Positions 4,129 to 56,733 of a stretch of 64,000 bases of DNA are shown here, piece after piece. The notes beneath the pieces are model-generated. The model had not been told where the DNA came from. It did not search any database and worked only from the letters and a program-made list of their open reading frames with translations. The stretch is from assembly GCF_000422245.1 (NCBI RefSeq), contig NZ_ATHI01000032.1:1-64000 (forward strand), in the 5' to 3' direction. This DNA comes from Alkalidesulfovibrio alkalitolerans DSM 16529 (GTDB taxonomy: Bacteria; Desulfobacterota; Desulfovibrionia; Desulfovibrionales; Desulfovibrionaceae). Each line of letters begins with the position of its first letter. Position 1 is the first letter of the stretch. The translations under genes and the position numbers were made by a program.

Positions 4129-5172
4129 ATGATCTATCCCGCCGAACGCATCCTGCTTTTGGACATCGGCAGCGGCACCCAGGACGTGCTCTACGCCCTG
4201 GCCGACCAGAACCCCTCTAACTGGCCCAAATTCGTGCTGCCCGCCCCGGCCCGGCGCGTGGACGCCCGTATCCGGGAACTGACCCGGCAAGGGCGCGACA
4301 TTCACCTGTGCGGCACGAACATGGGCGGCGGCTTCGTGCGGGCACTGAAGGACCACCTTGCGACCGGGTTCGCGGCCTCCGCCCATCCCGACGCGGCCTT
4401 CGCCCTGGCCGACGACCTTGGCCTCGTCACGACCATGGGCGTGCGGCTGAGCGAGACGGCCCCGCGCGGCCACGCGCCGGTCCAACTCGCGGATTACGAT
4501 CCGGGATTTTGGGAGGCGTTCCTCGGCGCGGCCGGGTTGCCATTGCCCGAGATGGTCGCGGCCTGCGCCCAGGACCACGGCTTTCATCCCGGCAAGAGCA
4601 ACCGCGAGGGCCGCTTCGCCCTGTGGCGGCGCTTTCTGACCGAGGCGAACGGCCGGATCGAGGCCCTGGTCTATGCCGCGCCGCCCGAGGAACTGACGCG
4701 CCTGGCCGTTTTGCAGCGCGCCATCGGCGGCGGTCCGGTGGCGGATTCCGGCCCGGCCGCGGTGCTCGGCGTGCTCAGCGTGCCGCGCATCGAGGAGCTT
4801 TCGCGCGAGCAGGGCATTTGCGTTGTCAACGTGGGCAACTCGCACACCATCGCCTTCCTGGTCCTCGATGGCCGGGTGTACGGCGTGTACGAGCAGCACA
4901 CCGGCCTCCTCGACGGCCGCGCCCTGTGGGACGATCTGGCGCGCTTCAAGGCCTGCCGCCTCAGCTTTGCGGAGGTTTTCGAGGCCAAGGGGCACGGCTG
5001 CATGACGCTCGATGCGCCGTCGCGGGCGGCCGGTTTCGCGCCCACCTTCGTCATCGGCCCGCGCCGCGATCTCCTGCGGGGATTCGAGGCCGAATTCCCC
5101 CATCCCGGCGGTGATATGATGGTCGCGGGCTGCCTGGGACTTCTCAAGGGCATCGCGGGGCATGGCGGCTGA
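4129..5172 (+). CDS. DUF1786 protein (ASKHA-like ATPase fold)
   Basis: 347-aa protein starting MIYPAERILLLDIGSGTQD, an actin/hexokinase-type phosphate-1 loop (DIGSGTQD), with a second such loop, VVNVGNSHTIAFLV, near residues 236-250. This pattern matches DUF1786, whose members have sometimes been labelled pyruvate-formate-lyase activating proteins although they lack a radical-SAM cluster; the real role is unknown. The ATG at 4129 follows AAGAAGGAAA. The last 11 bases overlap the start of the kinase-like gene, so the two are almost certainly co-translated. Confidence 0.75.
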   Translation: MIYPAERILLLDIGSGTQDVLYALADQNPSNWPKFVLPAPARRVDARIRELTRQGRDIHLCGTNMGGGFVRALKDHLATGFAASAHPDAAFALADDLGLVTTMGVRLSETAPRGHAPVQLADYDPGFWEAFLGAAGLPLPEMVAACAQDHGFHPGKSNREGRFALWRRFLTEANGRIEALVYAAPPEELTRLAVLQRAIGGGPVADSGPAAVLGVLSVPRIEELSREQGICVVNVGNSHTIAFLVLDGRVYGVYEQHTGLLDGRALWDDLARFKACRLSFAEVFEAKGHGCMTLDAPSRAAGFAPTFVIGPRRDLLRGFEAEFPHPGGDMMVAGCLGLLKGIAGHGG

Positions 5173-48735: not shown

Positions 48736-48759
48736 TGGTGGGGCGGCGTCAATCGCACC
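48736..48759. repeat. Far attachment-site copy (diverged ssrA 3' end)
   Basis: Read on the minus strand: GGTGCGATTGACGCCGCC then CCACCA, against GGTTCAATTCCCGCCGCC-T-CCACCA of ssrA. One base is missing and five differ. The core GCCGCC(T)CCACCA is shared. Confidence 0.65.
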
Positions 48760-48810
48760 ATGCGCCTATCATTTCGATATAGATGACAAATGATGATTGG
48801 CGATTTCGCA

Positions 48811-48836
48811 TGTTGCCCCCAAAGTTGCCCCCAGGT
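48811..48836. repeat. Left copy of paired GTTGCCCC repeat
   Basis: GTTGCCCCCAAAGTTGCCCC lies about 55 bases inside the left border. A near-identical pair (GTTGCCCCAAAAGTTGCCCC) lies inside the right border, in the same orientation. Possible arm-type integrase binding sites. Confidence 0.55.
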
Positions 48837-48941
48837 TGAACGGGTAGGGCTCTATGGAACGCCCCTCGCACGATGATTTTTGCTGCGCGGCTGGCCCGGT
48901 CGTGGTAGTATTTTCTACGCCCTGAAATGGAGGTGGCGCGC

Positions 48942-49160
48942 ATGACGCTCGACAAGGCCATCGTGAAGTCGTTCCCGACCGGGTACATCCTCCACGACAA
49001 GTCCGGATTCAACCGGTTCACGCTCAAGGCCCCGGCCTGGCTGATAATCGAGCATTGGGGCCAGACCGATGACGGGCTTGAATGGTTCGTGGCCGTGACC
49101 GGCGTGCAACACAAGTCCATGTCGGACGGCATCGAGGAACTTCAACGCCTGCGGGGGTAG
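48942..49160 (+). CDS. Element-encoded small hypothetical protein
   Basis: 72 aa, not recognised. Soluble, with strings KSFPTGYILHDKSGFNRF and WGQTDDGLEWFVAV, suggesting a small beta domain. The ATG at 48942 is preceded by GGAGGTGG at good spacing. It reads opposite to the rest of the element and sits next to the far border, where cargo genes are often found. Confidence 0.6.
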   Translation: MTLDKAIVKSFPTGYILHDKSGFNRFTLKAPAWLIIEHWGQTDDGLEWFVAVTGVQHKSMSDGIEELQRLRG

Positions 49161-49164
49161 GAAA

Positions 49165-49407
49165 GTGGCCGACGAGAAGAAAATGGATGACCTTGACCGC
49201 ATGATTGAAGCCAACATGGCGCGCATGACGCCAACCCGCTTGGCAAAGATCGCCTGGGCCAAGGCCAACGCGCATCTGTTCACCGACACCATGCCGCCCA
49301 TGCCGCCGGATTCGGCCGAGGTGAAGGCCGCGCAGGAGACGGTGCGGCGGATTATGTCGGGCGAGCCTGCGCGGGATGGGCCGGACGGGAAAGAGCCGGG
49401 CGATTGA
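49165..49407 (+). CDS. Element-encoded small hypothetical protein
   Basis: 80 aa, not recognised; highly charged helical N-terminus (KKMDDLDRMIEANMARM) and a disordered Pro/Gly-rich tail. The start is GTG at 49165, 4 bases after the stop of the previous gene, so it forms a two-gene unit with it. Confidence 0.5.
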   Translation: MADEKKMDDLDRMIEANMARMTPTRLAKIAWAKANAHLFTDTMPPMPPDSAEVKAAQETVRRIMSGEPARDGPDGKEPGD

Positions 49408-49777
49408 CCGGAGGTTGCAGGCGCGATAGGATGAAAACTGGGAGATTCCGGCCCTTGGAAGTGGGGGCCGGGTGGGAGTCCGAAGTTTACATATCGCTAG
49501 TTATGGTGCGCATATCCCGGAAGTGGGAGTATGGCCCCGCTCTCGGGCCTATTTTCCCCTCGAAGTGGTAGCTGAACCGCATCCGGCAGCCAGACCCCGA
49601 CCGAAACGACCTCGCCCCGAAGCCCTGGCTGCCCGTCTGACGCATTTTCAGGCCTCGGCCCGACAAAGGGCGTGGGCGAGCCTGGGAAGACGCAGCAGAG
49701 GGCCGTTTCTGCGCGAAAAAGGGCGGCCCCTTTCGAGAGCCGCCCCGGAACCGTCCAGAACAGGACAGCGGGGAGGG
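49408..49777. other. Non-coding stretch between convergent element genes
   Basis: About 370 bases. It contains a 7-base inverted repeat (CCGGCCC...GGGCCGG, 49449-49472), three loosely spaced GAAGTGG strings (49458, 49520, 49564), and the terminator at 49716-49745. No supported gene. Confidence 0.5.
49716..49745 (-). terminator. Terminator of the element's leftward operon
   Basis: GGGCGGC...GCCGCCC (7 bp, 11-base loop) with five T's after it on the minus strand. It lies 33 bases beyond the last leftward gene. Confidence 0.75.
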
Positions 49778-50485
49778 CTAGAGTCCCTTGGACACTCGAT
49801 GGACCGGATCGAACCGCGCCGGGGCAGTCTGACGCGCGATGGCCTCCAACGGAGCCAACGCCTTGCGAGCACGGGTGAAGTTGTGATTCATGACGTTGGC
49901 CAGCGCGCGGAGGTCGTCGGCCGTGGCGGCGCTCGTGGGGTCGATCCGAGCGGCGAGGCGACGTTCAACGGACTGGCGCAGGCTCTCGGAGGCCAGCCCG
50001 AGGCAGCGCGGGGCGCGGATAATGGCGTTCAGAAGCTCGAAATCGCCCTGGGCCAGGGCCTCGCTCAGGCGGTTTTCGCGGAAGGCGGGATCTTGCTCGG
50101 CGAACCAGCGTCGAATTTCCCCGGCGCGGACTTCATCGGCCGCTTTGTCGCCGGTGCTCGCGGCGGTCGCGGCACGGGACGCAGCGGCGTTGAGGGCGTT
50201 GGCCATGTTGCCCGAGCGGTCGGAGATGTTCTTCGTGAATTCCGCCTCGGCCGCATCGAGAAACGCGGCCTTCTCGGCGTAAAGCTCCGTCTTCCTTGCA
50301 TTTTTTCCTTCATCGGAAAGATTTTTGTCGTTGTCGATGGCCGCGAGGCGTTGTTCGAGGTCGGCCGCGTCAGCGTGCAGGCGGGCAACGTGGGCTTCAA
50401 GTTCGTGCTCCAAGGCCTCGCCGTTGATGGGCGAGAACGCAGTCTCGGTGATGAAAAGCGTGTCGCGTTCGTTCAGGACTTTCAT
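49778..50485 (-). CDS. Coiled-coil hypothetical protein (scaffold-like)
   Basis: 235 aa, not recognised. Strongly helical: residues about 20-95 look like a coiled coil (EHELEAHVARLHADAADLEQ), followed by an Ala-rich part and a C-terminal helical domain. Size and composition recall phage scaffold or capsid-accessory proteins, but there is no family match. GGAGACC precedes the ATG. Last gene of the leftward element operon. Confidence 0.6.
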   Translation of the reverse strand: MKVLNERDTLFITETAFSPINGEALEHELEAHVARLHADAADLEQRLAAIDNDKNLSDEGKNARKTELYAEKAAFLDAAEAEFTKNISDRSGNMANALNAAASRAATAASTGDKAADEVRAGEIRRWFAEQDPAFRENRLSEALAQGDFELLNAIIRAPRCLGLASESLRQSVERRLAARIDPTSAATADDLRALANVMNHNFTRARKALAPLEAIARQTAPARFDPVHRVSKGL

Positions 50486-50497
50486 GGTGGGTCTCCG

Positions 50498-50743
50498 TTA
50501 TGCGGCGTCCGGCGCGTCGCCGGGGTTGAGGTTTGCGGGCTGGCCAATGATGAGCGGCGAGGTCGTCGAGCGTTCAACGCGGCCGACGAACTGACGCTCG
50601 GTTTCGCCGGGGTCGCGGGTGAATGTCTCGCCTCGGCAGGACTCGGCCCCGGCTAGGTCGTCGCCGTTAACGATCCACAAGGGCTGATGACGCCGGGCAC
50701 GGTTGGCTGCTTCGAGGCGCTGAACACGGTTGAGCAGGTTCAT
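50498..50743 (-). CDS. Element-encoded small hypothetical protein
   Basis: 81 aa, not recognised. It begins with a leucine-rich short helix (MNLLNRVQRLEAANRARR) and then a compact domain (LWIVNGDDLAGAESCRGETFTRDPGETERQF). The N-terminus resembles that of the two genes upstream (RIVDLERAVESR; ARLARLEEQ), hinting at a shared short helical module. Its start overlaps the stop of the gene at 50740-50982. Confidence 0.55.
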   Translation of the reverse strand: MNLLNRVQRLEAANRARRHQPLWIVNGDDLAGAESCRGETFTRDPGETERQFVGRVERSTTSPLIIGQPANLNPGDAPDAA

Positions 50744-50982
50744 GCTGCCTCCGGGCCTGGGGCCGGTTCAGGGCGTCGGCGGCACGCGGTTTGAACCACG
50801 ACGTGCAGGCCGGACGGGCTCGGGTTCGCGTCGCGGGCCTCGGACTCGCTGGCGTAGGCCTGACCGCCCACGCTGGCCGTGCCGTCGAGGTGGCGGATTA
50901 TGACGACGGTAGGCTGCACCGGCCTGCGGGACTCTACCGCGCGCTCCAAGTCAACAATGCGCCGGGTGAGAATGCGTCTCAT
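50740..50982 (-). CDS. Element-encoded small hypothetical protein
   Basis: 80 aa, not recognised. A helical start (MRRILTRRIVDLERAVESR) is followed by TVVIIRHLDGTASVGGQAYASESEA, similar in layout to the next product (helix, then a short beta region ending in an acidic/Glu-containing tail). Overlaps both neighbours by 4 bases, so it is tightly co-translated. Confidence 0.55.
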   Translation of the reverse strand: MRRILTRRIVDLERAVESRRPVQPTVVIIRHLDGTASVGGQAYASESEARDANPSPSGLHVVVQTACRRRPEPAPGPEAA

Positions 50983-51236
50983 GGGTTCTCCCTTGCTTGT
51001 TCTTCGAGTCGAGCGAGGCGGGCTTCAATGTCGCCGTCCTTGATGCAACCCGAAAGCAGGTTGAGCAGATAGCCGAGTTTGGTTGCCAAACCGGCGTCCA
51101 CCTTCCCCTCCCTGGTTTCATGGACCAGGCTGGCGAGGTAGCGTCTCACGTCCTCCAGGCTCTTCAGTCGCGGGCGGCGCGGGGGGTGTCCGGCGGGATT
51201 CCCGCGCGGGGCCTTGGTTCCGGTGGGTTTTTTCAT
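50979..51236 (-). CDS. Element-encoded small helical protein
   Basis: 85 aa, not recognised. Basic, Pro-rich N-terminus (TGTKAPRGNPAGHPPRRP) then helices (SLEDVRRYLASLVHETREGKVD, DIEARLARLEEQ). This layout resembles small phage-encoded DNA-binding or terminase-small-subunit-like proteins, but there is no motif to prove it. AAGGAG precedes the ATG at 51236. It starts 16 bases after the primase stop. Confidence 0.55.
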   Translation of the reverse strand: MKKPTGTKAPRGNPAGHPPRRPRLKSLEDVRRYLASLVHETREGKVDAGLATKLGYLLNLLSGCIKDGDIEARLARLEEQARENP

Positions 51237-51252
51237 GACAAAAACTCCTTGC

Positions 51253-52473
51253 TCATGCCGCTTCTCGAAGACAGGCCGCGCAGAAATTCGAGCCCCCGCG
51301 CCGCACTCGAAAAAGCGCGCTTCCGCAGGGGCACAGGTCGGGGCAAAGCCATTTGGACCTTGGCCGCAGGCGGGGCGCTGGCTGCGTTTTTTCCTTCGGC
51401 GCGGGGGTTGTGTCGGGCTTGGCCTCGAAAACGTCTCCTGCTTCATCCTGGCGCGAAGTTTCGATCAATCCGGCCTTGATCCATGCTCGAACAAGGGCAG
51501 GTGTTCCGGCGAGGTCGCCCACGTCTTTGCCCTGCGGCACCGGCCAGGGGCGGGCCTGGGGAAGGTTCTCGGCCCACCATGGCCATGCGGCCCGGCCTGC
51601 ATCGTCGAAGTCCAGGGCCACGAGGACCAGCGGCGCGGCGCGAAGGTAGGCGGTCATATCGGCGTCGGGCTTTCCGGTCGCGGTCCCGAGGGCGAGAGTC
51701 CCGGCGAGGTCGCAGGCCTCCTGCCAGACAAGCACGGCGTCAAGCTCGGACTCGACCACGACCACGGGCAGGCCGGTGGAGCCGAGAGCCAGGCCGGGCG
51801 CACTTCCCGCGACGGCGACATACTTCGGCCGCTCGTCTTCGGGCGTCCAGGCGGCCCGGCGGACCTTCAGGGCAACGAGGCCGGACTTGCGGCGGCTCGG
51901 GAGGGTCATCCCGGCAGGAAGCCAGACTTTGCGGGGCTTGCCCGTCTTGGGGTTGATCTCCGGCGGCAGCCCCCAGGCTTCGCGATCCTCGAACCGGTCG
52001 GCGGGGTTCCAGCCGATGGTCAGGCGGCGCACTGTCTCGGCTGTCAGGCCACGGCTTGTGGCGTAGGCCAAGCCCTCGGAACCGGGCGGCAGGTGGGCGG
52101 CGCACTCGGCGGCGAAACGGGCGGCACGGTCCTGCCAGGTGGAGGGCGGCACGGTCGCGGGCTTCGGTTCCCAGGTCCGGCGGACAGGCGGGACATGTCC
52201 GGCTTGTCCCGTCCGTGTCCGTGGCTCGACGCGTAGCGCGGTGCAGGCCTGGGCGTAGGAAAGGCCGTCGCGCTCCCGCAGGAAGGCGATGCCGTCACCG
52301 GCCTTACCGCAGCCTCGGCAGAAGAACCGCCCTCCAGCATCGCCGCTCGGGTGGTCCGGCCAGATGCGGAACCGGTCGCGTCCTCCGCAGAATGGGCAAG
52401 GGCCTGCCCACTCGCCGTTCGAGGTTCCGGCGACGTGTTTCAGCCCGGCAGGGATCATATCCAGCAAGTTCAT
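51253..52473 (-). CDS. Element primase (zinc finger plus Toprim)
   Basis: 406 aa. N-terminal zinc ribbon (CPFCGGRDRFRI ... FFCRGCGKAGD, residues ~26-57), then a Toprim domain with VVVVESELDAVL (~245) and LVLVALDFDDAG (~285), and a C-terminal Cys-rich patch (LCPDLCPCGS, FCAACLREAA) that could bind another zinc. This is the phage/plasmid (P4 alpha-like, DnaG-type) primase class. The start overlaps the ATPase stop (ATGA), so the two form a replication pair. It has no helicase domain of its own; that role falls to the upstream gene. Confidence 0.85.
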   Translation of the reverse strand: MNLLDMIPAGLKHVAGTSNGEWAGPCPFCGGRDRFRIWPDHPSGDAGGRFFCRGCGKAGDGIAFLRERDGLSYAQACTALRVEPRTRTGQAGHVPPVRRTWEPKPATVPPSTWQDRAARFAAECAAHLPPGSEGLAYATSRGLTAETVRRLTIGWNPADRFEDREAWGLPPEINPKTGKPRKVWLPAGMTLPSRRKSGLVALKVRRAAWTPEDERPKYVAVAGSAPGLALGSTGLPVVVVESELDAVLVWQEACDLAGTLALGTATGKPDADMTAYLRAAPLVLVALDFDDAGRAAWPWWAENLPQARPWPVPQGKDVGDLAGTPALVRAWIKAGLIETSRQDEAGDVFEAKPDTTPAPKEKTQPAPRLRPRSKWLCPDLCPCGSALFRVRRGGSNFCAACLREAA

Positions 52474-53777
52474 GCGTCGGACTCCCCTGGGCGGGACAAC
52501 CGGGACACCCCTTTAGGGGTGTGTCCCGTTATGTCCCGCTCGGGACATGGGGACAGGTGCGGGACATGTCCCGCTTTGTCCCGCTGTCCCGCAGGCCAGT
52601 AGCGGTCAGATTCCGTCTCGACATGCCCGGATTCGAGGAGGCCAGCCACAGCCCGGCCGAAAGCCTTCCGCTTGGCGCTTTGGTCGTCTGACGGGGTGAT
52701 CCCGTTGCGGTAGGCGGCCTCCCGCCAAATCTCGATGTGCGCCCAGCCATCGACCTCGCAGCACGTCCGCAGGGCGTCCATGGCCCTGGACTTCGCCCCC
52801 GTCAGGCCCTTGGGCCTCTTGCCGGGAGCCTCGACGCGCCGAAGGACCACGGATGTGATTTCGCGCCCCGTTTCGGGGTCGGCCCAGGAGCAGCCCACGT
52901 CCTCGGGCTCGAATGCGAGGTCGGGCGGCTCGGGGTGGTCCTTGCTCTTTGTGCAGTGCAAGACGCGCGTTTCGTCCCGCGCTTCAAGACGAAATTCCCA
53001 ATCGAGGGCAGCCCGCAGGGCGGACGATCCGCGCGAACGATCCTTGTCAGCCAAGCCGGAGTGGTGGACCAGCAGCACGGCACAGCCGAGGCGGGCCTTG
53101 AGTTGGTCGATGGCCGCGATGAAGCGGGACATGTCCGAGGTGCTATTTTCGTCACCGGGGCCGAAGCACCGCGCCAAAGTGTCAATTACCACCAAGGCGG
53201 GCGCGCCGTGTTGCTCGGCCAGGGCGGCTACGGCCAGGGTCACGGCCTCGGCTGATACTGCGTCGAGGAACTGGACGGTCTGCGCGGCCACAAAGAATGG
53301 CAACCGATCGTCAACCTTGTCGTGCTCGATCAGCCAGGCCCGGATGCGCTTGGACAGCCCCGAGAGGCCTTCTCCGGCGATGTAGAAGACCGGGCCGGGC
53401 CGGGGCACTTCGTTGCCGTGCCAAGCCATGCCCGAGGCGATGCACAAGCCCAGGTCAATGGCGGCGAAGGACTTCATGCTTCCGCTCGGGCCAAAAAGGC
53501 AGCCCAAATTCCCCGCCTCAAGAAACCCGCGAACGAGCCATTGAGGCGGCCGGGGCTCGCGCAACATTTCGTCCAGGCCCACGAAGCGGAACGTAGGGAC
53601 CGCAGCCGGGCCGGGTTGTTCCTGGGGCTTCTCGGCAGCGCGGAACGTCTCGGCCCGCGCCTCGACTTGACGTCGGATTTCGTCCAGGTCGATGACCGGC
53701 GGCGGTCCTTCTGCGGGCGGGGCCTCTTCGCGCGGCGCGATCTCCGCGTACTCGGCCCAGGTATCGGCGGCGCTCAT
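52470..53777 (-). CDS. RepA-like hexameric replicative ATPase
   Basis: 435 aa, RecA-fold ATPase. Walker A GCLFGPSGSMKSFAAIDLGL (~residue 103), Walker B LVVIDTLARCFGPGDENSTSD (~195), and sensor segment CAVLLVHHSGLADKDRSRGSSAL (~225-245), as in plasmid RSF1010 RepA and phage-satellite helicases. A winged-helix-like part near 330-390 is possible. Its C-terminal ~30 codons are the site of the dense TGTCCC array. It follows AlpA by 1 base. Confidence 0.85.
   Translation of the reverse strand: MSAADTWAEYAEIAPREEAPPAEGPPPVIDLDEIRRQVEARAETFRAAEKPQEQPGPAAVPTFRFVGLDEMLREPRPPQWLVRGFLEAGNLGCLFGPSGSMKSFAAIDLGLCIASGMAWHGNEVPRPGPVFYIAGEGLSGLSKRIRAWLIEHDKVDDRLPFFVAAQTVQFLDAVSAEAVTLAVAALAEQHGAPALVVIDTLARCFGPGDENSTSDMSRFIAAIDQLKARLGCAVLLVHHSGLADKDRSRGSSALRAALDWEFRLEARDETRVLHCTKSKDHPEPPDLAFEPEDVGCSWADPETGREITSVVLRRVEAPGKRPKGLTGAKSRAMDALRTCCEVDGWAHIEIWREAAYRNGITPSDDQSAKRKAFGRAVAGLLESGHVETESDRYWPAGQRDKAGHVPHLSPCPERDITGHTPKGVSRLSRPGESDA
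52493..52590. repeat. TGTCCC/GGGACA array, candidate replication origin
   Basis: Ten copies of the hexamer TGTCCC or its complement within 98 bases, starting at 52493, 52502, 52522, 52532, 52542, 52550, 52561, 52567, 52577 and 52585. Includes a near-perfect inverted repeat at 52502-52527 and the 12-base palindrome GGGACATGTCCC at 52561-52572. It straddles the 3' end of the ATPase gene just before the primase end of the junction. Confidence 0.6.
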
Positions 53778-53778
53778 A

Positions 53779-53985
53779 TTAGGCGGCCTGTTGACCGGCT
53801 TCTTCGATGAATCGGCGCACGTCGTCCTCGCGCCAAGCCGTCGTGCGCGGGCCGATCTTGACCGGAGCAGGGAAGCGGTTCTGCTTCACCCACAGCCAGA
53901 TGGTGGACTTGCCGACCGGGACGCGGGCCAAAACTTCCGGCAGGCGGAGAAGGCGGGCGGGGCTGGGATGATTCGTCGTGTCCAT
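53779..53985 (-). CDS. AlpA-family regulator/excisionase
   Basis: 68 aa, the length and pattern of AlpA: LLRLPEVLARVPVGKSTIWLWVKQNRFPAPVKIGPRTTAWREDDVRRFIEE is a MerR/Xis-like winged helix. In P4-like and related elements such proteins activate the integrase promoter or assist excision. It lies between the replication pair and the integrase region, in the typical position. Confidence 0.88.
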   Translation of the reverse strand: MDTTNHPSPARLLRLPEVLARVPVGKSTIWLWVKQNRFPAPVKIGPRTTAWREDDVRRFIEEAGQQAA

Positions 53986-54064
53986 GCTTGGACCTCCTTG
54001 GTTGAGGCAAGCATGGCTGGACCAGCACTGATGTTAAAGCCAAAGAAATACGGATTTGATTACA

Positions 54065-54457
54065 CTACTCTTTCAGCACCTCCCGCGCAATTTTGGCATG
54101 TTCTTCGGCGACACCTGGGAAACACTGTAGGGCCTTGCGGAGGGTGCTATCAGATGCGCCCAGAGCGCGGCAAACTTGGTCCCGTGCGTCGTCCTCGTTA
54201 ATCGGCCCTCCCGGCGTCCCGATGGTGGCGCGGGCCATGCCCAGGGCCACACACAAGAGGCGATCCCGCCAAGCCGTTTCCCACGGCGCGGCACGGCGGC
54301 CTCTTTTGTCCCTGCGGTCCGGATCGAGCTTGTCCGCCAGTATGGCGCAGATGTTGGGGGGTAATGGGCTTTTCCGCTCGCGTAGCGCCTCGGCCACCTC
54401 TGCCCATCTTCGCAGGTGAATTTTGGCCTCAAGGTCAGCGTCAGCCAGATCAACCAT
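54065..54457 (-). CDS. Element-encoded hypothetical protein
   Basis: 130 aa, not recognised, predicted mostly helical (LADADLEAKIHLRRWAEVAEALRERK; AHAKIAREVLKE-like C-terminal end EEHAKIAREVL). A helix-turn-helix is possible near residues 90-115 (DARDQVCRALGASDSTLRKAL), which would suit a regulator. GGGAGG precedes the ATG at 54457. The stop is 79 bases upstream of alpA. Confidence 0.55.
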   Translation of the reverse strand: MVDLADADLEAKIHLRRWAEVAEALRERKSPLPPNICAILADKLDPDRRDKRGRRAAPWETAWRDRLLCVALGMARATIGTPGGPINEDDARDQVCRALGASDSTLRKALQCFPGVAEEHAKIAREVLKE

Positions 54458-54561
54458 TTCAAGCCCTCCCGTGGCTTGCCTCCCATGAATCCCGCGCCCG
54501 CCGGTGGGAGTGCCGGTTTTCGCCGCAGGGGATCAGCCCACGGCTAGGGCGCGGGAAAGCT

Positions 54562-55779
54562 CTATCCTGCCTGCTCCCGGTGCAATGGAATGACCTTGCC
54601 CCCGGCCTTGAGCTCGTCCAGAAAATCCGCCCAGGCCTGCATCATGCGGCGGCGCTCGGGCAGGTGCTCCGCGAAGTTGTACGCGGCCCGCACGCTGTTG
54701 CGCTCGGCGTGGGCCATCTGGCGTTCGATGGCGTCCTTGTGCCAGCCCGCTTCGTTGAGCGCGGAGCAGGCCAGGGAACGGAAGCCATGGCCGGTCATCT
54801 CGTCCGAGGTGTAGCCCATGCGCCGCAGCGCGGCCGTAACGGCGTTTTCGGACATGGGCCGTGCCTTGCTTCTCGCGCTCGGGAAGACGTATCGGCCCGC
54901 CCCGGTAAGGGGCTGTATCTCGCGCAGGACGGCCACCGCTTGGCGCGAGAGGGGAACGATGTGCTTCTCTCTCGCCTTCATCTTCAGGGACGGGATGCGC
55001 CACTCTGCGGCCTCGAAGTCGATCTCCGACCATTCGGCATGGCGAAGCTCGCCGGGCCGCACGAAGACCAGCGGCGCGAGCTTGAGAGCGCAGCGCGTGA
55101 CGTGGTGGCCCGAATAGCTGTCGAGGGAGCGGAGCAGGGCGGCTATGTCCTTGGGGTCGGTAAGGCTGGCGTGATGCTTCTTGTTGGGCGGGGGCAGTGC
55201 CCCGCGCAGGTCGCCGGAGGGGTCGCGGTCTGCCCGGCCGGTGGCCACGGCATAGCGAAAGACTTGCCCGCAGTTTTGCAAGGCCCTGTGCGCCGTTTCC
55301 AGGGCTCCCCTGGCCTCGATCCGCCGCAGGGTTTCCAGAAGCTCGGGGGCCATGATCTCGCGGATGGGCCGGGAGCCGATCCAGGGGAACACGTCTTTTT
55401 CGAGGCGGCGCAGGATGCGGCCGGAATGGGAAACGACCCAGGAGGGGGAAAACTTGGCGTGCCACTCGCGGGCCACGGCCTCGAAGGTGTTGGTCTGCTC
55501 GACGCTCTCGGACTTCTCGGCCTTGCGGACAGCGGCGGGGTCGATGCCCTGGGCAATCAGCTTGCGTGCCACGTCGCGCTTTTCGCGGGCCTCGGCAAGG
55601 GGCACTTCGGGATAGACACCAAGAGAGAGTCGTTTTTCCCTGCCCTCGAAGCGGTACTTGAAGCGCCACCACTTGCCACCGGCGGGGGAAATTTCCAGAT
55701 ACAGGCCCCGCTCATCGAACAGGCGGCGGGCCTTGGGGCCGGGCTTGGCGCTCTTGCAGGCGGTGTTGGTCAGGGGCAT
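54562..55779 (-). CDS. Tyrosine integrase, P4 type
   Basis: 405 aa. N-terminal arm-binding DUF4102 domain (MPLTNTACKSAKPGPKARRL..., KYRFEGREKRLSLGVYPEV), core-binding SAM-like domain (~100-190), then the catalytic domain with FVRPGELRHAEW (Arg), TGHGFRSLACSALNE (HxxR) and AAYNFAEHL (nucleophile Tyr near residue 380). Residues present support an active enzyme. The ATG at 55779 has GGGAGGTGA. Reads away from ssrA, whose 3' end it targets. Confidence 0.93.
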   Translation of the reverse strand: MPLTNTACKSAKPGPKARRLFDERGLYLEISPAGGKWWRFKYRFEGREKRLSLGVYPEVPLAEAREKRDVARKLIAQGIDPAAVRKAEKSESVEQTNTFEAVAREWHAKFSPSWVVSHSGRILRRLEKDVFPWIGSRPIREIMAPELLETLRRIEARGALETAHRALQNCGQVFRYAVATGRADRDPSGDLRGALPPPNKKHHASLTDPKDIAALLRSLDSYSGHHVTRCALKLAPLVFVRPGELRHAEWSEIDFEAAEWRIPSLKMKAREKHIVPLSRQAVAVLREIQPLTGAGRYVFPSARSKARPMSENAVTAALRRMGYTSDEMTGHGFRSLACSALNEAGWHKDAIERQMAHAERNSVRAAYNFAEHLPERRRMMQAWADFLDELKAGGKVIPLHREQAG

Positions 55780-55783
55780 GGCG

Positions 55784-56224
55784 TCACCTCCCCAGAAGTT
55801 TGCCCAAGAGGCTGTGAAGGGTTGCCGCTTCATCGGGCGTCACGCGCAGGGCCGCGCCGTCTTTCCGTATGACAATGCTCCCATCGGCCAAGAGCACGGC
55901 GGCGGCTATGGCGGACTCGTCTAGCGGGCCTTCCCCGGTGGCCGCGCCCGCGTCCCTCCGTTTGGTGGACGGGTCAAGGCCCAGACCCAACAATGCGCGA
56001 GCCTCGTCGCGGCGTGACCTCGCCTCCTGCAAGCTGACCTCGGGATACCATCCAAGGGAGATTTGCTTCTCCCGTCCCTGAAATCTGTACTTGAGCCGCC
56101 AGACCATGCGCCCAGATGGCAGGTTCATGCAGAACAGGCCGCCGCCGTCGAAGAACTTTCCGGGCAGCGAATCCAGATTTGCCTTGGCTACCAACGCTTC
56201 CGAGAGCTTTTGGGGAACACTCAT
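55784..56224 (-). CDS. Stand-alone integrase arm-binding (DUF4102-like) protein
   Basis: 146 aa. Residues ~1-85 match the DUF4102 arm-binding domain of P4 integrases (KANLDSLPGKFFDGGGLFCMNL, LKYRFQGREKQISLGWYPEVSLQEAR) but no catalytic domain follows. Instead there is a distinct C-terminal ~60-residue part (DGSIVIRKDGAALRVTPDEAATLHSLLGKL). It ends 4 bases before the integrase start, so both are made together. The N-domain is similar, not identical, to that of the full integrase (~55-60% in the shared core by eye). Confidence 0.8.
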   Translation of the reverse strand: MSVPQKLSEALVAKANLDSLPGKFFDGGGLFCMNLPSGRMVWRLKYRFQGREKQISLGWYPEVSLQEARSRRDEARALLGLGLDPSTKRRDAGAATGEGPLDESAIAAAVLLADGSIVIRKDGAALRVTPDEAATLHSLLGKLLGR

Positions 56225-56239
56225 TTGCTCGGTTCTCCT

Positions 56240-56266
56240 GTTGCCCCAAAAGTTGCCCCAATCTGC
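56240..56266. repeat. Right copy of paired GTTGCCCC repeat
   Basis: GTTGCCCCAAAAGTTGCCCC about 110 bases inside the right border, same orientation as the copy at 48811. Probably an integrase arm-site pair or regulatory site. Confidence 0.55.
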
Positions 56267-56314
56267 GCCCGGATGTCAATAGACCAGTCTGGACTTTGAC
56301 GGACTGTCACCAAC

Positions 56315-56336
56315 AAAAAACCCCGGATTTCCGGGG
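56315..56336 (-). terminator. Terminator downstream of ssrA
   Basis: CCCCGG-attt-CCGGGG (minus-strand orientation reads CCCCGG/CCGGGG, 6 bp) followed by six T's on the minus strand. It lies on the element side of the border, so the element apparently brought a substitute ssrA terminator. Confidence 0.8.
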
Positions 56337-56373
56337 TCTTTTGGCCTTATCTGTACTTCTTTGGATTTTCTGA

Positions 56374-56733
56374 TGGTGGAGGCGGCGGGAATTGAACCCG
56401 CGTCCGAGAACGCTCGGCACGGAGCATCTACAGGTTTAGAATGAGTTTCGTCGTCATTTTCCGGATTGCCCCCACTCACGGCAGCCGGAAAACCAAGACC
56501 GTCTGTTTTCTCGCATCGTCGGCAACGGACCGACCAACGACGCCAGCCAGATAAGTTTTCGCCGTCACGGTTTATCTGACGTCCACCGCTTCGACGTGAC
56601 CGTTATTTAGGCGGCCAGAGCGTAATCGTAGTCGTTCTTGGCAACTATTGGTTGTGCCGCTTTTTACGAGGCCAGCGGCGCCTCGACCTGCAACTCCGAC
56701 CTCGACTATCCCCGTCGAAACCGGTGCGCCCCC
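56374..56733 (-). ncRNA. ssrA: tmRNA (transfer-messenger RNA)
   Basis: 360 nt on the minus strand. The tRNA-like ends pair: 5' GGGGGCG with 3' CGCCTCC, and the 3' end GGTTCAATTCCCGCC...CCACCA gives the T arm. The tag frame (resume codon GCC) reads AKNDYDYALAA-stop, preceded by ATAGTT. It rescues stalled ribosomes and tags nascent chains for degradation. Its last 25 bases form the attachment site of the adjacent element, which restores an intact 3' end. Confidence 0.96.

Follow-up and report, generated by a model that had tools for sequence, protein, structure and literature searches.

A compact element without structural genes in the 3' end of the tmRNA gene of Alkalidesulfovibrio alkalitolerans, probably a phage satellite

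The first 64,000 nucleotides of contig NZ_ATHI01000032.1 from Alkalidesulfovibrio alkalitolerans DSM 16529 (family Desulfovibrionaceae), referred to here as the window, carry a mobile element of 7,663 bp (48736-56398) at the 3' end of ssrA, the gene for transfer-messenger RNA (tmRNA). ARAGORN and Rfam agree on an intact tmRNA gene at the right border, as claimed in the preliminary description of this DNA, and its tag peptide is AKNDYDYALAA. The element has a GC content of 65.4%, vs 63.2% for the whole window, and a coding density of 0.87 with the codon-score gene caller from which its gene starts were taken. Ten of its 12 called genes are co-directional, and two small genes at the far end run the opposite way (Table 1). 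Judging from its gene content, the element is probably a phage satellite working like the phage-inducible chromosomal islands (PICIs) of Gram-negative bacteria.

The integrase, the AlpA-like regulator and the RepA-like ATPase that had been read from the sequence are each backed by Pfam. The "Toprim primase" stood in part: Pfam supports a Zn-ribbon primase and PHROGs a DNA primase (4.3e-26), while Toprim_2 stayed under its cut-off (E=0.0063). The integrase also covers positions 8-400 of the 413 in NCBIfam model PRK09692, under that model's cut-off. No capsid, portal, tail or large-terminase match was found among the element proteins in Pfam, PHROGs and NCBIfam scans, and seven small genes had no match above curated cut-offs in the libraries applied to each (Pfam and PHROGs for five, three of them also NCBIfam; NCBIfam and Pfam for the two far-end genes), in line with the missing capsid genes and the seven small genes first described. 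The evidence supports a mobile element devoid of structural genes, probably dependent on a helper, that occupies the 3' end of ssrA in what is probably a sulfate-reducing bacterium. Two features are new: a gene encoding only an arm-DNA-binding domain, and an int-alpA RNA, which was present in two of seven scanned relatives (L029 and L033; relatives are cited by G numbers for genomes and L numbers for loci). The arm-domain gene stops 4 nt short of int, with one of the tandem motifs described below just ahead of its start, and its product may therefore compete with the integrase for the motif sites or regulate the int operon. The C-terminal part of this protein matched one of 199 family genomes, its own. 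Hairpins resembling the one beside the tmRNA gene were readable by eye in L027, L029 and L194.

Table 1. Features of the element and its target gene (window positions)
Feature	Position	Strand	Remarks
Left end, diverged copy of tmRNA 3' end (attL-like)	48736-48759	-	24 nt; 20/25 positions align
Left tandem motif, probably integrase arm-type sites	48812-48831	.	12-bp period; 1 of 2 matches in 64 kb
72-aa protein, no family	48942-49160	+	coding by codon score
80-aa far-end protein, no family	49165-49407	+	coding by codon score
235-aa helical protein, distal gene of recurring module	49778-50485	-	profile E=3.6e-7
81-aa "RVQRLE" protein 2	50498-50743	-	paired genes recur in relatives
80-aa "RVQRLE" protein 1	50740-50982	-	paired genes recur in relatives
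85-aa TerS-like protein	50979-51236	-	resembles C-terminal part of DUF5681/PHROG 9747 proteins
Primase (Zn_Ribbon_Prim, DnaG-type zinc finger, Toprim-like)	51253-52473	-	Pfam 3.5e-10, 9.5e-6
RepA-like ATPase (AAA_25)	52470-53777	-	Pfam 4.5e-43
AlpA-family regulator/excisionase	53779-53985	-	Phage_AlpA 6.3e-11
130-aa protein, no family	54065-54457	-	HTH_23 E=0.08, under cut-off
int-alpA RNA (RF02996)	54479-54555	-	39.3 bits, cut-off 35.8
Tyrosine integrase (arm, middle, catalytic domains)	54562-55779	-	three Pfam domains
Arm-DNA-binding-domain-only protein, just upstream of int	55784-56224	-	Arm-DNA-bind_3 2.3e-20 (Pfam)
Right tandem motif, just upstream of arm-domain gene	56240-56259	.	
Hairpin and T-run 3' of tmRNA, within element	56313-56337	-	by eye
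Right-end core, within tmRNA gene	56374-56398	-	
tmRNA gene, intact, integration target	56374-56733	-	ARAGORN and Rfam, 196.3 bits

The diverged left copy of the tmRNA 3' end was recovered as claimed, with 20 matching positions, 4 mismatches and 1 gap against the last 25 nt of the gene. When the downstream 9.4 kb were shuffled 200 times, 62 shuffles scored as high, and a second place ties with the copy once the query is lengthened and the range widened. Since such a score is frequent by chance and tied elsewhere, the left repeat was rejected as sole proof of the boundary. Within zones of 305-306 nt around the left end, picked after the match was known, 3 of 500 shuffles reached the same score. 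Support is added by a tandem motif, GTTGCCCCNAAAGTTGCCCC, which occurs exactly twice in the 64 kb, at 48812 and 56240, even with 2 mismatches allowed, and in none of 100 dinucleotide shuffles; the pattern was built from these two copies, first noticed as a repeat pair. A looser form, GGGGYA-N6-GGGGYA, gave one extra match inside the element (51328) and none in the 55.9 kb of the window outside it, compared with 0.1 matches per 64 kb in 20 mononucleotide-shuffled windows.

We counted the looser motif over 29 sources. Ten loci, the window included, have a strong match to the integrase class (E below 1e-60), and five of these carry a motif pair near each end; among the other five, L033 and L202 have one pair and L031, L037 and L199 none. 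L030 also has one pair. The ends are set independently by a core repeat in only three of the five two-pair loci (the window, L029 and L035), the far end of L027 resting on the motif pair itself and the core repeat of L194 disagreeing with the motif. The 27 loci (390,745 bases) in which the count was zero are no independent control, because loci with known motif hits had been left out beforehand. Core repeats were clear in L035, L029 and L049 (reached by 0 of 200 shuffles each) and were not found for L027, L031, L033 and L037. The element ends are thus marked better by the tandem motif than by the left core copy, and from its position and recurrence we infer that the motif probably represents integrase arm-type sites. 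L194 has its perfect 20-nt copy of the tRNA 3' end (2475-2494) at a distance of 2.1 kb outside the motif pair found at 4620, perhaps reflecting two elements in tandem.

Relatives of the primase were found in 78 of 199 family genomes at E<=1e-10, spread over 27 of 44 genera, and related elements sit at tmRNA, tRNA-Ser and tRNA-Leu genes of other Desulfovibrionaceae. A search of the family had been proposed for both the primase and the 235-aa protein; searched singly, the latter matched only its own genome among the 199. Bounded copies with good ends come from G015 (at the tmRNA gene, core of 27/30 nt, 9.6 kb), G080 (at tRNA-Leu, 8.5 kb) and G028. The G028 element at tRNA-Ser, of about 6.6 kb and bounded by the motif alone, runs integrase, AlpA, ATPase, primase, TerS-like protein, two "RVQRLE" proteins and distal protein: eight genes common with the window element, in the same order, without its arm-domain, 130-aa and far-end genes. 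A second G028 element spans 6,676 bp between perfect 49-nt repeats and has a different integrase and replication gene; reading its genes revealed no structural ones. An element of G337, at a tRNA gene and with uncertain ends, joins the same distal module to another replication gene.

This distal module (85-aa type, two "RVQRLE" genes, helical distal gene) appears in the same order in the window, L027 and L049 (both G028), L050 (G143), L193 (G340) and L194 (G337), adjoining replication genes as varied as AAA_25 ATPase plus primase, Prim-Pol, an HTH_36 protein and a DnaB_C-like protein. A profile of five other distal proteins finds the 235-aa protein at E=3.6e-7, with the runner-up among the window's called proteins at 0.43, and HHalign relates the distal family at 56% (E=1.1e-4); the L193 member was assigned only by position and a 21%-identity alignment. 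The profile matched 4 of 199 family genomes. The predicted structure of the 235-aa protein, of low confidence, is all helix (predicted local distance difference test, pLDDT, of 62), and its match to NCBIfam PspA lies far under the cut-off. The "RVQRLE" gene pairs recur in the same five loci outside the window. At the far end, the 72-aa protein matched one of 199 family genomes, its own, and the 80-aa protein had no NCBIfam, Pfam or PADLOC match.

Since the same kind of unit is found in other genera at other RNA genes, the distal module travels as a complete unit. This bears on whether the element could be what remains of a once complete prophage, stripped of its structural genes but still equipped for integration and replication. 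The decayed left end would fit such an origin, as would DUF5681 and "RVQRLE" genes in prophage-like L205 and beside virion-like genes in L198. We nevertheless consider a remnant unlikely: independent decay is not expected to spare the same set of genes each time, yet the same kind of structural-gene-free unit recurs with the same distal order, one related copy has perfect 49-nt ends, and the coding density of the window element is 0.87.

The 85-aa protein provides the link to packaging. HHalign pairs its family with the C-terminal part of longer proteins of the DUF5681 type (96.8%, E=3e-10), which sit after replication genes in other elements; DUF5681 itself was demonstrated for one, and two long forms match PHROG 9747, of unannotated function (1.2e-6 and 2.7e-4). 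A further alignment (95.5%, E=1.4e-8) links the family to gp1 of Pseudomonas phage DDSR119, a PHROG 9747 member whose gene is directly followed by that of the large terminase. Of six regions examined with gp1 relatives, two place them directly before an annotated large terminase (Vibrio phages 1.042.O and vB_VaM_H2). In phiV208 the next gene is unannotated and equal in length to that in H2; SF3 has another unannotated gene at this place, the P400 gene is last in its record, and vB_SflM_004 has a DUF5681-region match elsewhere in its genome. A sister element in G167, with a primase 64% identical, carries a small terminase (Terminase_2 TerS, E=8e-17) in the slot after the primase. With a profile of the 85-aa family, 348 genomes of the order were searched: 30 gave a match at E<=1e-4, including 12 at E<=1e-17; the weaker matches were mostly longer frames, several DUF5681-like. 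In the DDSR119 record (L206 1-2055) the small-terminase and large-terminase labels seem to have been interchanged.

The preliminary description had offered a satellite or a helper-dependent mobilisable island. Integrases, excision factors and replication genes are also known from integrative mobilisable elements, moved by the conjugation of another element, and the gene set would fit one. That the window element is of this kind is highly improbable, however: its proteins gave no relaxase or mobilisation domain in the library scans (oriT was not searched for), the primase had no match in 72,556 plasmid records at E<=1e-5, and a TerS-like gene would be unexpected there. This gene and the TerS of G167 argue for the satellite half of the proposal. 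We give just as little credence to a genomic island chiefly devoted to defence or toxin-antitoxin cargo and no longer mobile. The G015 ssrA element does carry DarT, a macro-domain protein (DarTG-like) and, by eye, a HicAB-like pair (L035 11033-13468), yet PADLOC matched only the primase among the 10 of 12 window-element proteins scanned, through reverse-transcriptase (DRT) models with a DnaG-like part (3.2e-9); moreover, such cargo and a satellite lifestyle are compatible. In the G167 element, a Fic/DOC protein lies between the integrase and an HTH-like small gene (L028 6564-7610).

With its own integration and replication genes, a packaging-related gene and no virus shell, the element most likely travels by hijacking another virus. 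In such a cycle, the integrase would use the ssrA 3' end as attB with arm-type sites at both ends of the element, which would restore the tmRNA and supply a terminator-like hairpin. AlpA, induced by a helper phage, would trigger excision together with the integrase, as PICI and PICMI work suggests: alpA inactivation strongly lowers induction and transfer of EcCICFT073 (PMC6092414), and excision of PICMI115 needs alpA, int and a small int-overlapping gene (PMC10803314). From their domains, the RepA-like ATPase and the primase would copy the excised DNA. The short TerS-like protein may then engage the large terminase of the helper, leading either to packaging of satellite DNA or to disturbed packaging of the helper; devoid of the N-terminal part of the long forms, it might be an adapter or a competitor there. 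More speculatively, helper head assembly could be the target of the tandem small proteins and the distal helical protein.

P4 integrates beside an RNA gene, and P4-like satellites share with the element such a site as well as integrase, AlpA and replication primase. The label "P4-like" nevertheless did not survive: no psu, delta, epsilon or P4 alpha (PF03288) was found among the Pfam matches of the 12 element proteins, and layout and one-way transcription fit Gram-negative PICIs better. The sid gene lacks a Pfam model; PMC8628076 describes its detection by a custom profile. Gram-negative PICIs such as EcCICFT073 are like the element in their one-way integrase, AlpA, replication genes and att site and in having no structural genes (PMC6092414). 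They are further characterised by att sites that prophages never use and by induction and packaging that depend on a phage. The order of integrase, replication module and transcriptional regulator is conserved in the element, transcription is unidirectional apart from the two opposed far-end genes, and structural-gene matches are absent. By the same paper, however, these PICIs measure 12-15 kb against 7.7 kb here, and some carry terS where the element has only a partial TerS-like protein; PMC10803314 gives an average PICI size of 9.5 kb. The element further differs in its separate RepA-like ATPase and DnaG-like primase, its extra arm-domain protein and its host, a member of the Desulfovibrionaceae. 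The minimalist PICMI satellites of Vibrionaceae are likewise very small, with integrase, AlpA, primase and a small gene beside int, but are defined (PMC10803314) by a DUF3987/DUF5906 primase and a fis site, as opposed to the Zn-ribbon/DnaG-like primase and ssrA site found here. A DUF3987 protein is present in the related G015 element.

What is new relative to known PICI-type satellites is the replication pair, the truncated TerS-like protein, the tandem small genes and the distal helical protein. A candidate small protein module thereby stands where terS is kept in PICIs. A more specific idea, which we put forward as tentative and rather doubtful, is that of a distinct Desulfovibrionales satellite lineage in which a truncated C-terminal TerS-type protein, two "RVQRLE" proteins and the distal helical protein capture the large terminase or reshape heads, with integrase and replication modules swapped around this core. 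The best-described satellites are those of Enterobacterales, Vibrionaceae and Gram-positive cocci, and a recurring family in sulfate reducers would extend them to an environmentally important group. That the family was previously undescribed is plausible: no description of it was seen among the matches listed, taken as titles and beginnings of abstracts, for satellites, PICIs and ssrA islands in Desulfovibrio and satellites in Desulfovibrionaceae. A large satellite survey in Nucleic Acids Research fell outside this scope, and earlier detection by software is therefore possible. In the passages searched, PMC12946183 mentions Desulfovibrio only for a gene transfer agent. A study of prophages in sulfate reducers (PMC8146710) regards 17 unclassified Desulfovibrio prophages as potential remnants, satellites or isolated genes. 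The satellite family may account for some genes now counted as such prophage remnants.

Several points weigh against the satellite reading. The decay of the left core suggests an old copy, possibly dead, that may no longer excise. The 85-aa protein had no direct match to a TerS model in Pfam and PHROGs, and its predicted two-helix fold none in the PDB at E<=0.001. DUF5681 and "RVQRLE"-type genes are no proof of a satellite either, because both are present in L205, by its gene content an ordinary prophage fragment that includes tail genes. The distribution of large terminases speaks for the satellite reading: 34 matches to PHROG 2, the only family searched, were found in 19 of 20 genomes, none of them inside the elements (coordinates compared by eye), and where a match shares a contig with an element the smallest distance is about 210 kb; absence means little for the G143, G181, G241 and G002 copies, which lie near contig ends. 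In G167 the single match is on another contig. The genome of the window has three, of which one adjoins Mu-like genes and another portal-like genes as judged by eye; against the satellite reading, the module profiles found nothing in about 20 kb around each. Finally, the satellite cycle of induction, packaging and helper use is read here from genes. The three terminase loci mark at most possible helpers; two blastp matches of relatives near them (E=0.003), to small coiled-coil-like proteins, were judged to be chance.

The surroundings of the insertion were compared with those in congeners. On its left, the element is flanked by a P-type ATPase gene, a small gene and an arginine-deiminase/DDAH-like gene, and on its right by tRNA-Met, bacA and two lptF/lptG-type genes. 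Congeners G043 and G071 gave no primase match and no match to element genes within 19 kb around ssrA. G043 keeps tRNA-Met, bacA and lptFG on one side, and in G071 the region downstream of ssrA includes the small gene of the left flank as well as the P-type ATPase. Other genes intervene at ssrA in both, so that the comparison with relatives proposed at the outset yielded two congeners without the element beside ssrA and no base-exact empty site.

Among viral contigs, 55 loci have primase relatives. None of 18 short sequences (16 of these and two phage records) had exact terminal repeats, and hence neither a circular nor a packaged form came to light. Two short "Bacteriophage sp." records were rejected by eye as packaged satellites: one reads as bacterial genes, and the other is a prophage fragment with tail genes that also holds DUF5681 and "RVQRLE"-type genes. 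Large proteins follow DUF5681 or primase genes in some relatives (L198 1063-6106, L033 10027-17564, L201 6271-7971). Those of 332, 358 and 566 aa had no PHROG match, and another is 2176 aa long. A 663-aa protein of L198, a 7.7-kb contig, matches endolysin, tape-measure and tail-injection transglycosylase PHROGs; such relatives are possibly satellites carrying ejection proteins.

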